42,241 bases of DNA from a virus: positions 1 to 42,241 of the IMG/VR virus record IMGVR_UViG_3300042904_000455. One strand, written 5' to 3'. The position numbers and the translations under genes were made by a program. Each line of letters starts with the position of its first letter. The first letter of the stretch is position 1. Of the stretch, positions 11,540 through 18,716 are shown piece by piece. Under the pieces are notes generated by a model, which searched no databases, was not told the DNA's origin, and saw only the letters and a list, made by a program, of their open reading frames with translations.

Positions 11540-11965
11540 CTATTTTAAACATGGAACCCCATCTTGAACGAGCTTTTGCGTCTTCTCTTTTCCGTCAAGC
11601 CACCCGTATGCTATTAGAAACTTATAACCAAAAGGCTCTACCGTATCCCTGAATAGTTTTTGGTCTTGGCTTAAATATGCTCTTATCGGCTTTGCGGGCT
11701 TTACCTCTATAAACGTAAACCAGCCAGGAATAAATAAATCCCAGAAACCAGGGTAGACCCCCATCTCTTTTAAACGCTTTCCTCTAAGCATGGCTTTAAA
11801 TGATTCGCTGTCTCTGGCTTCACCGTTAGGGGAGTGGTGGATAACCACGCCTGGATATTCATCCTTGAACCATCGGACAAGCTTTATATGCTCCGGCTCT
11901 TCACGCCTAACTCTAGGCTTCTTTGGTTTCTTTGGTTTTAACTCGTCTAATGATTTTATTCGCAC
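11540..11965 (-). CDS. VRR-NUC domain nuclease
   Basis: 141 residues, starting at GTG with an AAGGAGAAAG ribosome site. A basic N-terminal tail (PKKPKKPRVRREE) precedes a VRR-NUC (PD-D/ExK superfamily) fold: Glu25 in the first helix, the GxxP-type segment MGVYPGFWDLFIP at 68-80 with Asp76, and FIEVK at 85-89 (Glu87, Lys89), followed by LSQDQ and a final helix. Phage members act as structure-specific or Holliday-junction-type nucleases in recombination or packaging. It is probably transcribed from the inverted-repeat region upstream. Confidence 0.85.
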   Translation of the reverse strand: MRIKSLDELKPKKPKKPRVRREEPEHIKLVRWFKDEYPGVVIHHSPNGEARDSESFKAMLRGKRLKEMGVYPGFWDLFIPGWFTFIEVKPAKPIRAYLSQDQKLFRDTVEPFGYKFLIAYGWLDGKEKTQKLVQDGVPCLK

Positions 11966-12099: not shown

Positions 12100-12127
12100 T
12101 TGACATTTTTGAATTGTATGCTATAGT
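12100..12127 (+). promoter_or_regulatory. Strong sigma-70 promoter of the tRNA-like region
   Basis: TTGACA (12100-12105), a 16-base spacer and TATAGT (12122-12127). It matches consensus at 11 of 12 positions and predicts a start near 12134, upstream of the hairpin leader and both tRNA-like elements. The GCTTGACA context is shared with the two - strand early promoters. Confidence 0.75.
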
Positions 12128-12172: not shown

Positions 12173-12205
12173 GCCAGTTTAGGACGCTAAAGGATGAAAA
12201 CTGGC
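12173..12205 (+). other. Leader hairpin before tRNA-like element 1
   Basis: GCCAGTTT (12173-12180) pairs perfectly with AAACTGGC (12198-12205) around a 17-base loop and is followed by TTTTA. It lies 6 bases before the first tRNA-like element. It could be a weak terminator or attenuator, or a processing signal for RNase III or RNase E. Confidence 0.5.
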
Positions 12206-12211
12206 TTTTAT

Positions 12212-12298
12212 GCGCCCGTAGCTTCAACAGGTAGAGCATCTAGTGATTGCTGCAAAGCATGACCAGGAGGGTTATCGGTTCGACTCCGATAGGGCGCT
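12212..12298 (+). tRNA. tRNA-like element 1 with expanded anticodon arm
   Basis: 87 bases. Acceptor strand GCGCCCG pairs with AGGGCGC (12291-12297; one G-A mismatch at the base of the stem). The D-arm is GCTT/GAGC with loop CAACAGGTA, and the T-arm is ATCGG-TTCGACT-CCGAT. A normal 17-base anticodon arm is missing. In its place 12239-12267 folds into a longer imperfect hairpin capped by GCAA. I find no 7-base loop with U33 and a normal stem, so no anticodon can be assigned. No CCA is encoded. It may be a tRNA with a short insertion, a decoy, or a degenerate tRNA. Confidence 0.5.
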
Positions 12299-12304
12299 TT
12301 TATG

Positions 12305-12429
12305 CGGTACGATGCCTATTGTTAGGGCGGAAGATATAAATTTAATAATGAAAGAGTAGCCTGCTTTCATGTTGTTTGTGTTTTCTCCGACTTTGGCCGC
12401 GGGTGTTGGTTCGAATCCAGCCGTATCGC
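12305..12429 (+). tRNA. tRNA-like element 2 with about 50-base insertion
   Basis: The 3' part is a clear T-arm, GTTGG-TTCGAAT-CCAGC (12405-12421), followed by CGTATCG (12422-12428). This pairs over all seven positions (one G-U) with CGGTACG (12305-12311). A D-arm-like GCCT/GGGC follows the 5' strand. GAAGA (12330-12334) can pair with TTTTC (12381-12385), but about 46 bases, including the hairpin ATGAAAG/CTTTCAT, sit where 7 loop bases should be. It may be a tRNA with an intervening sequence, a remnant, or a tRNA 3'-end identity block with chance pairing upstream. Confidence 0.35.
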
Positions 12430-12435
12430 TCTGTA

Positions 12436-12451
12436 TGTTTCACGTGGAACT
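12436..12451. promoter_or_regulatory. Chromosomal-type parS-like site
   Basis: TGTTTCACGTGGAACT differs by one base from the parS-type sequence TGTTTCACGTGGAACA. The core GTTTCACGTGGAAC is a near-perfect palindrome with one T in place of C. Chromosomal ParB proteins of many bacteria bind this sequence. The phage has no recognisable parA or parB, so host ParB would have to act on it. It lies between tRNA-like element 2 and the next gene's ribosome site. Confidence 0.65.
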
Positions 12452-12462
12452 TTGGGGAAAAG

Positions 12463-12744
12463 ATGAGTAAACATATTGGCAGCAACCTAAATGAATTTTT
12501 AGAGGAAGAGGGTTTATTGGCGCACACAGAAGAGGTGGCGAATAACAGAATGCATGGCGTTGTAAAAATCACAGATCTCGGTAAAGATTTTAACCTACAC
12601 ATTAACCACCCCACTTTAGGTGATTTTGTCATCACAAGAATGGATAACCGCTCTCTGTTCATGCATGAATTAGATGAGCTGGTTGGCTATATCAAAGAAC
12701 GACTAGGGTTTACCAATGACCAACATAATCAAAGCTCCGAATAA
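12463..12744 (+). CDS. Small protein with IGSNL/LEEEG N-terminal motif
   Basis: 93 residues. The ATG at 12463 with GGGGAAAAG upstream is preferred over a long extension running back through tRNA-like element 2. The N-terminus, SKHIGSNLNEFLEEEGLL (2-19), resembles the leader motif found before the helix-turn-helix of XRE-type antitoxins, but the rest (about 25-93) shows no such helix-turn-helix and instead looks like a small alpha/beta domain (GVVKITDLGKDFNLHI). A related motif closes the protein of the convergent gene at 12772. Function unknown. Confidence 0.65.
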   Translation: MSKHIGSNLNEFLEEEGLLAHTEEVANNRMHGVVKITDLGKDFNLHINHPTLGDFVITRMDNRSLFMHELDELVGYIKERLGFTNDQHNQSSE

Positions 12745-12771: not shown

Positions 12772-13044
12772 TTAACCCTCTTTCCCCTTAAACCCCTCTT
12801 CCTCTAGCCAACTATCCAAGTTGCTGCCGATGTATTTGTGTGTTTGTTTTTGAAATGGTCTAAATTCATCTAATAGCGCTCCGGTTCCTGGGTTGTCCAG
12901 ATACCTTATGAAGTTTGGATGTAAAACGTGATCACATTCTTTGCAGGCAATATGGTTTATGTTGTGACGAACCACAGTATGCAGCTTTAATCGCGAGCCG
13001 CAGTTTTGGCAGTGAACATTTATATCTTCAACTTCAATTGCCAT
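12772..13044 (-). CDS. Zinc-ribbon protein with C-terminal IGSNL/LEEEG motif
   Basis: 90 residues from the ATG at 13044, which has AGGAGAAGAGG upstream; a longer form from 13068 is less likely. Cys12-x2-Cys15 and Cys34-x2-Cys37 form a zinc ribbon. The C-terminus carries HKYIGSNLDSWLEEEG, nearly the same as the N-terminus of the convergent gene at 12463. It overlaps the upstream gene by 11 bases, so translation is likely coupled. Last gene of the long - strand early operon. Function unknown. Confidence 0.65.
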   Translation of the reverse strand: MAIEVEDINVHCQNCGSRLKLHTVVRHNINHIACKECDHVLHPNFIRYLDNPGTGALLDEFRPFQKQTHKYIGSNLDSWLEEEGFKGKEG

Positions 13045-13456
13045 CCTCTTCTCCTGTATTTTGTTCAAATATAATCGGATGCTCTTCCCAATATTTAAAC
13101 GCTTTCTCTCTAATGCTTTCTAGCTCTTGTGTGCGCATAGCGGCATAACCATCACACGAGCACTCGCATATATTTCCACTTCCAGAGCCGCGCCCACATT
13201 CTCTTACATGAGCTATAGGTAACCCCATTAGTCCTCTTAAGCGATTATATTCAGCCCATGAAAGGGGGTAGTCATACCGCTTATTTTCAAATGAAGAATA
13301 TTGGGTCCGTGATTGTTTTTCATAATACTCTTTGTGTCCAACCACGAACATTGAAACCGAATCTGGCCAGCAGGTTTCAAAAAATATATTATTTAGGTTG
13401 ACGGTGAGAACAACCTTATCTCCGTCACAATCAATTGTCTTTACGTCTACAAACAT
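13034..13456 (-). CDS. Hypothetical early protein
   Basis: 140 residues, TGGAGAA ribosome site. The N-terminal half is beta-rich (VDVKTIDCDGDKVVLTVNL). The middle has several aromatic residues and a short Cys-rich stretch (ECGRGSGSGNICECSCDG, about 87-104) that might bind metal, and the end is helical. No family recognised. Overlaps the zinc-ribbon gene downstream. Confidence 0.6.
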   Translation of the reverse strand: MFVDVKTIDCDGDKVVLTVNLNNIFFETCWPDSVSMFVVGHKEYYEKQSRTQYSSFENKRYDYPLSWAEYNRLRGLMGLPIAHVRECGRGSGSGNICECSCDGYAAMRTQELESIREKAFKYWEEHPIIFEQNTGEEDGN

Positions 13457-13817: not shown

Positions 13818-13837
13818 GTGATTATGCCTATAATCAC
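13818..13837 (-). terminator. Hairpin overlapping the rtcB stop codon
   Basis: GTGATTAT/ATAATCAC gives a perfect 8-bp stem with a 4-base loop and includes the rtcB stop codon. No T-run follows, so it is a weak or factor-dependent terminator or an mRNA-end-stabilising hairpin. Confidence 0.4.
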
Positions 13838-15042
13838 CCTTTGACGCACAGAACCTGCTTTAGTGTATGCACAATTTTGACGTGATCAGCTTGCGCAGCC
13901 ATAACCGCGTCAATATCCTTGTAGGCCATAGGCGTTTCATCAATCACATCTTCGTCTAACCTACATTCAACACCAGAAACGGCCTGTTTGTGATCGTCCA
14001 ATGTAAACCGTTTTTTAGCCTCATTGCGTGACATAGCGCGCCCAGCCCCATGAGAGCAAGAGTTAAAAGAATCTCTAAGAGCTGGCCCTTTAATGCCTTC
14101 TACAATATAGCTTTTAGCGCCCATACTCCCTGGAATAATGCCAAATACCCCTTCATTTATATGCACGGCCCCTTTGCGTGTTAAGTAAACTTCTTTCCCG
14201 AAGTGAAATTCTTTGCTTACATAATTGTGGTGGCAGTTAATAGCTTTTATATCAGCATCAAATGGCATGTTAATAACAAGGCGCATGGCTTTAATAACAT
14301 TTTCCATCATTGCATTTCTGTTCCATTGCGCAAAAGACTGAGCCCAGCTAACGGCAAAAGTGTAATCTTTAAACAATTCACTCCCATCCGGTATATAGGC
14401 TAAGTCAATATCCGGCAAATTAATGAACCACCTCTGCATATCTTTTTTGGCTAGCTCTATAAAATGACTGCCAATCTTATTTCCAATGCCACGAGAACCA
14501 GAGTGCAGCATTATCCATACATGGTTAGCTTCATCTAGGCATATTTCTATAAAATGATTACCAGTTCCAAGGGTTCCTATATGCAAAAAAGCTTTTTCCG
14601 CTGCCCGTTTTAATTCTGGATATTTATCAACAATAGAATCGAGGCCGCTTTTCAATCCGTGTATATGCGCTATATTCCTAATTTGGTCTGAATATTCCCT
14701 AAATGAACCTTTATCTCTTGCGCCGCCGTTATCGGTTCGCCCGTGCGGCACGGCCGACTCAATAGCACACCTTAATTGAAATAAATTATCGGGGAGGTTG
14801 TTTGCATTTAAACTTGTCTTGACCGCCATCATGCCGCATCCAATATCAACACCAACAGCGGCGGGTATAGTTGCCCCAATAGTTGGGATAACAGAGCCAA
14901 CAGTAGCGCCCATGCCCCAGTGCACGTCTGGCATTACCGCTACATGTGGGTAAATAAAAGGCATAGAGGCAATATTGTTTAATTGCTTCCTAGCTTGCTC
15001 TTCAACTTCTACGCCGTTAGTCCATTCTTTTATATCTACCAT
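13834..15042 (-). CDS. rtcB: RtcB-family RNA ligase
   Basis: 402 residues, near the length of bacterial RtcB. RtcB joins RNA ends with 2',3'-cyclic phosphate (or 3'-phosphate) and 5'-OH, using GTP and Mn2+. The metal and guanylate site is complete: Asp66 and Cys69 in GVDIGCGM, Asn162-His163 in GTGNHF, His180 in LHSGSRG, His271/272 in NCHHNY, the guanylylated His331 in SCSHGAGRAMSR, and a C-terminal Lys in CVKG. In bacteria it repairs or splices tRNA and rRNA. Here it lies 1.4 kb from two tRNA-like elements in the early operon, which suggests repair of tRNAs cut by host anticodon nucleases, or processing of the phage RNAs. Confidence 0.95.
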   Translation of the reverse strand: MVDIKEWTNGVEVEEQARKQLNNIASMPFIYPHVAVMPDVHWGMGATVGSVIPTIGATIPAAVGVDIGCGMMAVKTSLNANNLPDNLFQLRCAIESAVPHGRTDNGGARDKGSFREYSDQIRNIAHIHGLKSGLDSIVDKYPELKRAAEKAFLHIGTLGTGNHFIEICLDEANHVWIMLHSGSRGIGNKIGSHFIELAKKDMQRWFINLPDIDLAYIPDGSELFKDYTFAVSWAQSFAQWNRNAMMENVIKAMRLVINMPFDADIKAINCHHNYVSKEFHFGKEVYLTRKGAVHINEGVFGIIPGSMGAKSYIVEGIKGPALRDSFNSCSHGAGRAMSRNEAKKRFTLDDHKQAVSGVECRLDEDVIDETPMAYKDIDAVMAAQADHVKIVHTLKQVLCVKG

Positions 15043-15051
15043 CTTCCCACC

Positions 15052-15249
15052 TCATTCATTGTAAATCACCTCGCATAGCTCACCCCTAACCTTAGCCATT
15101 CTTTTGTTCCATTTTTGTATAATTTCCTTTTCTGACTCACCGCCCATGTCTAGCCTGCATCTCTCGCACGATATAAAAGGGTTTCCTGAACAGCCAAAAT
15201 CCAAGCTCACGTCTCCAGCACAGAATGGGCACCCCTTTAATTCGCTCAT
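15052..15249 (-). CDS. Lar-like (restriction alleviation family) zinc-finger protein
   Basis: 65 residues. Pattern LKGCPFC (Cys7, Cys10), then CxxC (Cys28, Cys31), then a helix ending in KWNKR is the signature of the Lar restriction-alleviation-like family, widespread in phages. Lar in the Rac prophage modulates type I restriction; for most homologues the role is unproven. Nine bases upstream of rtcB in the same operon. A second Lar-like protein is encoded at 18318. Confidence 0.8.
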   Translation of the reverse strand: MSELKGCPFCAGDVSLDFGCSGNPFISCERCRLDMGGESEKEIIQKWNKRMAKVRGELCEVIYNE

Positions 15250-18317: not shown

Positions 18318-18716
18318 TCATTCTGTTGGCTTTTGTGAGCCCTTATATTGTTTTATCGCTTTTATCAAATTATCTTTACCGGAATCAATTCCCCTAAAAT
18401 CAGGCCGAGGATTCCCTCTTAAATTTGAGCCCAAAAGTAGTGCGTCGCTGATTAAACCATCTATTAATTTATCTATCTCTTCAATTGTCATTTCGCCCTC
18501 AGCACTTTCCATTTTGGAAACAACTGGCTCTGCGCGGCGATTCCATTTTTGTTTTACACCTTCCATTACATCTTTTATAGATGAGCCATGGTTCGACATA
18601 GAAGAGCCGCATGCGCATTCAACAATCGCTTCATAATATTTGTGCCATCCTATCTGGGTGCCAAGAGGGCCCTCTATATCATCATTCCCACAATGCGCAC
18701 ACGGTTTAAGCTCCAT
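18318..18716 (-). CDS. Lar-like zinc-finger protein, longer form
   Basis: 132 residues. Residues 1-60 match the Lar restriction-alleviation family layout: LKPCAHCGN (Cys6, Cys9), then ECACG, then KQKWNRRA. A second helical domain (about 75-132) not usual for the family follows. The start overlaps the previous gene's stop by 11 bases. With the 15052 gene, the phage carries two Lar-like proteins, which hints at anti-restriction function. Confidence 0.75.
   Translation of the reverse strand: MELKPCAHCGNDDIEGPLGTQIGWHKYYEAIVECACGSSMSNHGSSIKDVMEGVKQKWNRRAEPVVSKMESAEGEMTIEEIDKLIDGLISDALLLGSNLRGNPRPDFRGIDSGKDNLIKAIKQYKGSQKPTE

Follow-up and report, generated by a model that had tools for sequence, protein, structure and literature searches.

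The phage DNA analysed here, the 42,241-base virus record IMGVR_UViG_3300042904_000455 (hereafter the window), encodes a confirmed, genuine tRNA-like element, TLS1, that cannot decode, since it has no readable anticodon. Directly 3' of it lies a second tRNA-like RNA, TLS2, which the first-pass annotation of this DNA had missed, and the acceptor ends of both are of glycine type. Non-decoding RNAs built on a tRNA body are, moreover, a recurrent class in phages.

Genomic context of TLS1 and TLS2

According to its best matches the window derives from a phage with a P22-like portal, and its other products include a DnaD-like replication protein, SSB, a Sak4-like annealing protein, two Lar-like proteins and RtcB. 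The two elements sit in some 500 bp that hold no convincing gene and that are flanked by the starts of a minus-strand gene (at 11965) and of a plus-strand 93-aa ORF (at 12463). A promoter-like site and a leader hairpin (12173-12205) are found in the same interval (Table 1). The sigma-70 match is suggestive only, given that two promoter-like sites were found against 1.7 in shuffles, and the terminator search made no call at the leader hairpin. The 93-aa ORF, possibly co-transcribed with TLS1 and TLS2, gave no family match above cutoff in protein family searches, and no relatives were found by its protein. The rtcB gene lies 1.5 kb from TLS1, a neighbour for which a functional link is a candidate.

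Table 1. Positions of the features in the TLS1/TLS2 region (window coordinates) and of the Pseudomonas phage elements (coordinates in the accession given)
Feature	Position	Strand	Description	Basis
Sigma-70 promoter-like site	12100..12127	+	TTGACA-16-TATAGT, extended -10 TG	11/12 consensus positions
Leader hairpin	12173..12209	+	GCCAGTTT...AAACTGGC, then TTTT; just 5' of TLS1	Sequence; 8-bp stem in fold
11-nt direct repeat, copy 1	12204..12214	+	GCTTTTATGCG; across TLS1 5' end	100% identical to copy 2
TLS1, tRNA-like RNA	12212..12298	+	Acceptor, D-arm, T-arm, remodelled anticodon arm, U73	Rfam, detector, fold
11-nt direct repeat, copy 2	12296..12306	+	GCTTTTATGCG; across TLS2 5' end	Repeat comparison
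TLS2, second tRNA-like RNA	12304..12430	+	8-bp acceptor 12304-12311/12422-12429, T-arm 12405-12421, long hairpin for anticodon arm, U73
93-aa ORF	12463..12744	+	MSKHIGSNLNEF...; 3' of TLS2, same direction	ORF list
rtcB	13834..15042	-	RNA 3'-phosphate/5'-OH ligase	PF01139, E 4e-122
Element in Pseudomonas phage Shamal (L205-L207)	OR683409 12877-12974			
Element in Pseudomonas phage Haboob (L205-L207)	OR683404 15427-15523			
Element in Pseudomonas phage Itty13 (L205-L207)	MW460249 35332-35418			

Other features of this neighbourhood were also recorded. A parS-like site, TGTTTCACGTGGAACT (12436-12451), is located directly 3' of TLS2 and has one mismatch relative to the bacterial parS consensus, with a chance expectation of 0.02 in the window; a phage with a ParB-binding site would be notable. 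The motif IGSNLxxxLEEEG is common to two neighbouring small proteins (12463-12741 on the plus strand and 12775-13068 on the minus strand), where it stands at the N-terminus of one and at the C-terminus of the other. The two Lar-like restriction-alleviation proteins are encoded in the early region (15055-15249 and 18321-18716, minus strand), and their presence together with RtcB suggests a counter-defence neighbourhood.

TLS1 has the body of a tRNA

The acceptor of TLS1 consists of 6 bp (12212-12217/12292-12297) followed by a G7-A66 mismatch. U8 and A9 are present, the D-arm (12221-12237) has 4 bp and GG in its loop, the variable region is class-I, the T-arm (12274-12290), with 5 bp and a TTCGACT loop, is perfect, and the final base is U73 at 12298, with no encoded CCA. 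When the filters were relaxed and 601 bases of sequence searched, the Rfam tRNA model RF00005 matched the element over its whole length at 30.5 bits, above the gathering score of 29 (E 2.3e-4); default Rfam searches were empty because their fast filters miss it. A strict detector of tRNA-like elements, demanding at least 6 of 7 acceptor pairs, 5 of 5 T-stem pairs, T8, 4 of 4 D-stem pairs and GG in the D-loop, found TLS1 in the window (6/7 acceptor, 4/4 D-stem and 5/5 T-stem pairs) and gave no match in shuffled viral DNA totalling 887 kb. The acceptor, D-arm and T-arm are close to canonical, as the first-pass annotation had claimed.

The acceptor and T-arm of TLS1 are stable in the thermodynamic ensemble, unlike its D/anticodon half. 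The minimum-energy fold (-30.9 kcal/mol, as against -28.5 kcal/mol with the three tRNA arms enforced) keeps the acceptor and T-arm and re-pairs the D/anticodon part, and the shape of the anticodon arm is therefore only a predicted drawing. The longer hairpin with a GCAA cap that had been described for this arm can indeed be drawn at 12240-12266 (CUAGUGAUUGCU-GCAA-AGCAUGACCAG), but its energy of -4.7 kcal/mol is unexceptional, with 21% of shuffles equally good. A pairing of 12247-12256 in the arm with 12476-12485, close to where the 93-aa ORF begins, was found at 9 of 10 positions and judged to be within chance.

TLS1 cannot decode

In agreement with its earlier description as an RNA without a readable anticodon, TLS1 offered no 7-base loop with U33 on a 5-bp stem in any class-I or class-II reading. 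When it was read as a class-II tRNA with a long variable arm, or with the Cys(GCA) loop CUGCAAA, the stems failed. Read as an intron-containing tRNA it fared no better, none of 98 single excisions producing a U33 loop on an anticodon stem of 4 bp or more; the proposal of a tRNA with a small insertion is therefore unsupported. ARAGORN, run on the window without introns and also with the intron options that the first-pass annotation had recommended, called no tRNA at the default threshold, and at low thresholds with introns it produced noise all over the window. A tmRNA was also sought, and the window contains neither a gene call nor an Rfam match for one.

TLS2 and the differences between the two elements

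The fold of TLS2 is more stable than that of every shuffle (z -3.4), its acceptor and T-stem have pair probabilities of 0.94-1.0, and an 8-bp acceptor and perfect T-arm arranged in the same way occurred in none of 100 simulated windows; its D-arm is weak and its middle odd. Comparison of the two elements revealed paired differences at acceptor pairs 4-69, 5-68 and 6-67 and at T-stem pairs 49-65 and 51-63, with G1-C72, C2-G71, G3-C70 and U73 unchanged. The compensatory changes seen for TLS1 come solely from this pair. From the 11-nt leader and the T-arm that they have in common, we infer that TLS1 and TLS2 are paralogues.

No relative of TLS1 was found by DNA in phages or plasmids or by pattern in IMG/VR, so that the search of related phages for the same fold with compensatory changes, suggested earlier as a check, returned nothing for TLS1. 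Four IMG/VR pattern matches proved to be other elements; three have a CTTATAC-type loop, and the fourth spans two tRNA-like pieces. The phage itself has one relative by capsid protein, L081/G001, and none by this protein in bacterial genomes. G001 is devoid of TLS1, TLS2 and rtcB. It was also seen to carry an ordinary tRNA-Met(CAU) at another place (L084 7957-8032).

The acceptor ends are of glycine type

The acceptor part of the bacterial glycine identity comprises G1-C72, C2-G71, G3-C70 and U73 (PMC9976931 Table 1), and it is present in full in TLS1 and in TLS2. The same set was found in 18 of the 606 phage tRNAs examined, 17 of which are tRNA-Gly, and in none of the 51 other listed elements of the over-long class described below. 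The chance of finding it is about 3% if TLS1 and TLS2 are duplicates, so that it counts once, and about 0.1% jointly if they are independent. C35 and C36, which GlyRS also wants, are absent in TLS1, as it has no anticodon, and its U73 is the first of four T's and could be coincidental.

Two kinds of toxin are of interest in this respect. The GNAT toxin TacT, as quoted in PMC9976931, reads U73 and G71 of glycine-charged tRNA; both bases are present in TLS1 and TLS2, and their glycine charging is putative. FaRel2, one of the toxSAS enzymes, which take part in defence against phages, modifies a bare tRNA-Gly minihelix, whose acceptor stem it reads (PMC11559606). Its determinants are G1-C72, C2-G71, G4-C69 and purine5-pyrimidine68 (PMC11559606), of which the first two pairs are found in both elements and the pairs at 4 and 5 in neither, TLS1 having C4-G69 and C5-G68 and TLS2 G4-U69 and U5-A68.

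Non-decoding tRNA-bodied RNAs recur in phages

IMG/VR was scanned with a pattern consisting of a class-I D-arm and then an over-long gap before the T-arm. At least 51 distinct elements, counted among the matches listed, have a perfect 7-bp acceptor, which the pattern did not ask for, together with a perfect T-arm and an over-long middle. Among these 51 listed elements, 16 encode CCA and 30 have A73, and a readable anticodon loop is absent in 43 and present in eight, including a tRNA-Ile(UAU)-like group of five with a long variable arm. In 12 of the listed elements the anticodon stem is a perfect 5 bp and its loop is enlarged (0.9 expected). A single excision would suffice to restore four of the 51, namely L111, L123, L133 and L136 (0.23 expected), and interrupted tRNAs may thus form a minority of the class.

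Some of these matches are of interest in themselves. Unusually long, structured variable arms characterise the tRNA-Ile(UAU)-like phage tRNAs L093, L094, L114, L138, L142 and L208-L210, and the four restorable elements are candidate interrupted phage tRNAs; in L111 (62-166, minus strand) an excision from the anticodon loop would give Ile GAU.

A sub-family of tRNA-bodied RNAs of about 99 nt was found in at least 30 contigs (members include L097, L124, L130, L143, L149, L163 and L212-L230), in which a conserved and structured insert, with the core UCAWGGYNAAGGRCC, interrupts the anticodon arm. Compensatory changes affect 11 of its 22 predicted pairs, and seven of these are listed as outside or inside the insert. 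Rfam gives only 'tRNA' for this sub-family, several members of which lie in tRNA arrays and one with GOLLD. Another such element is present in the cultured Pseudomonas aeruginosa phages Shamal, Haboob and Itty13, with an acceptor lengthened to about 12 bp, in which Itty13 shows compensatory changes relative to the other two; it is not annotated as RNA, and a hypothetical ORF overlaps the Shamal copy. Such a class is undescribed in the literature searched, a search whose scope did not extend to most subscription journals and bioRxiv, and an earlier description is possible.

A possible role in titrating acceptor-reading proteins

TLS1 had been read in two ways, as a tRNA with a small insertion or as a tRNA mimic for a purpose other than decoding, such as a decoy for anticodon nucleases or a substrate for RNA ligase. 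The mimic reading is the better supported, given the unreadable anticodon, the adjoining TLS2 with the same acceptor identity, the compensatory differences and the existence of a recurrent class; the insertion is unsupported, and the two purposes named find little support. We tentatively propose that TLS1 and TLS2 are expressed, non-decoding glycine-type tRNA mimics that titrate acceptor-reading proteins, a possibility to which we give somewhat less than an even chance.

RNase P, the CCA-adding enzyme and EF-Tu need mainly the acceptor/T-arm half of a tRNA. We infer that the pair would be transcribed from the promoter-like site and trimmed by the host's tRNA-processing enzymes (RNase P, RNase Z or exonucleases, and the CCA-adding enzyme), and that it could then build up as a stable glycine-type tRNA mimic, barred from decoding, which would occupy the proteins that read the acceptor. 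Selection would have kept the acceptor stem and T-arm with their tRNA-Gly determinants, and hairpins would have replaced the decoding half. The most attractive targets would be defence toxins for which the acceptor stem marks out tRNA-Gly, either TacT/AtaT2-type GNAT acetyltransferases or a relative of the toxSAS enzymes, with GlyRS-linked processes as an alternative target of such a sponge. Since the minihelix is conserved between TLS1 and TLS2 and toxins that read the tRNA-Gly acceptor are known, a sponge for a toxin or for a GlyRS process is our best guess. The RtcB and Lar-like genes that the phage carries nearby count in favour of toxin titration, whereas the failure to find a TLS1 relative, the G7-A66 mismatch, the missing CCA and the lack of both elements in G001 count against titration, as do the two FaRel2 pairs that differ, the missing C35 and C36 and a U73 that may be coincidental. 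A more general version, in which a widespread and heterogeneous class of phage RNAs has swapped the anticodon arm and kept the acceptor and T-arm, the tandem glycine pair of this phage being a sponge against acceptor-reading toxins, we consider unlikely.

Other explanations have to be weighed against titration. Phages readily gain and lose tRNAs, and TLS1 and TLS2 might be functionless, decaying remnants of phage tRNA genes, as would fit the acceptor mismatch of the one, the weak D-arm and odd middle of the other and the related phage that has neither. Decay, however, should strike the acceptor and T-arm equally, yet these are near perfect in both elements and the middles wholly different. In addition, TLS1 and TLS2 differ largely by paired changes, they have the glycine acceptor set and the leader in common, and a good promoter-like site precedes them, so that we hold this explanation to be rather improbable. 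It is less probable still that the elements act in cis in the mRNA leader of the 93-aa ORF, either marking it for processing by RNase P/RNase Z or forming an operator for a tRNA-binding protein. The tRNA-like operators known for thrS count for such an action, and the elements lie on the same strand as the ORF, with about 30 bp from TLS2 to its start codon and the promoter-like site 5' of both; nevertheless, cis action has no need of two tandem copies with a repeated leader, and the comparable tRNA-like elements of cultured phages show no tie to any single gene.

The proximity of rtcB could be taken to favour the decoy or ligase purposes, and the uncut tRNA-like domain of YrlA has been proposed to inhibit an anticodon nuclease (PMC7790460). 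TLS1, however, is without the anticodon loop that most such nucleases cut, and only one of the 41 listed records carrying similar elements has rtcB, while 80 other phage rtcB regions yielded 59 tRNAs of normal length, as against a single genuinely long one and a tandem artefact. A link of rtcB to the class in general is not supported, and we regard TLS1 as very unlikely to be bait for an anticodon nuclease or a substrate of RtcB. That it is a working tRNA split by a short intron or insertion is hardly to be expected, in view of the failed excisions and the negative ARAGORN result with introns, even though the restorable members of the class exceed expectation and interrupted phage tRNAs may exist. 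Finally, tRNA mimicry and a nearby rtcB recall the Y RNAs of YrlA type. The ends of a Y RNA form a long stem that continues the acceptor (the Ro-binding stem), whereas the flanking pairs do not extend the acceptor stem of TLS1 and the flanks of TLS2 are unpaired by inspection; with no RF02553 match in the window and none of the searched window proteins resembling Rsr/Ro60, a phage Y RNA seems scarcely credible.

Comparison with known systems

Phage tRNAs are usually read as a codon supply or as nuclease-resistant replacements. A class of tRNA-shaped phage RNAs unable to decode would imply that the tRNA body, too, serves phages as a tool, for example by keeping busy the enzymes or toxins that act on the acceptor end. 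Such RNAs are passed over or mislabelled by annotation programs and thereby stay unseen in many genomes, including those of cultured Pseudomonas aeruginosa phages, where such elements are open to deletion and testing.

With a canonical phage tRNA (RF00005) TLS1 shares the acceptor, T-arm, D-arm and class-I variable region, a score above the Rfam cutoff and a glycine-type acceptor, and it differs from it in having an extended arm, no anticodon loop, no encoded CCA and no ARAGORN call. The Bacillus cereus pseudo-tRNA tRNA-Other (PMC3399842) is tRNA-shaped and outside translation, as TLS1 appears to be from its sequence, but it keeps a Trp anticodon, belongs to a bacterial genome, beside a pathogenicity island, and is only poorly aminoacylated. 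YrlA (RF02553; PMC7790460), a proposed competitor of an anticodon nuclease, is likewise a tRNA mimic encoded near rtcB, whereas TLS1 lacks the model match and the extended acceptor stem, and no Rsr partner was seen. GOLLD and ROOL (PMC12286853) are, like TLS1, non-coding RNAs of phages with no known function and are often neighbours of tRNA genes, but they are hundreds of nucleotides long, form cages and are not tRNA-shaped. The IMG/VR elements and those of Shamal, Haboob and Itty13 differ from TLS1 in their arm sequences, in the acceptor of about 12 bp of the Pseudomonas group and in the absence of the glycine set among those listed, but have in common with it a near-perfect acceptor and T-arm, a class-I D-arm and an anticodon arm that has been replaced.
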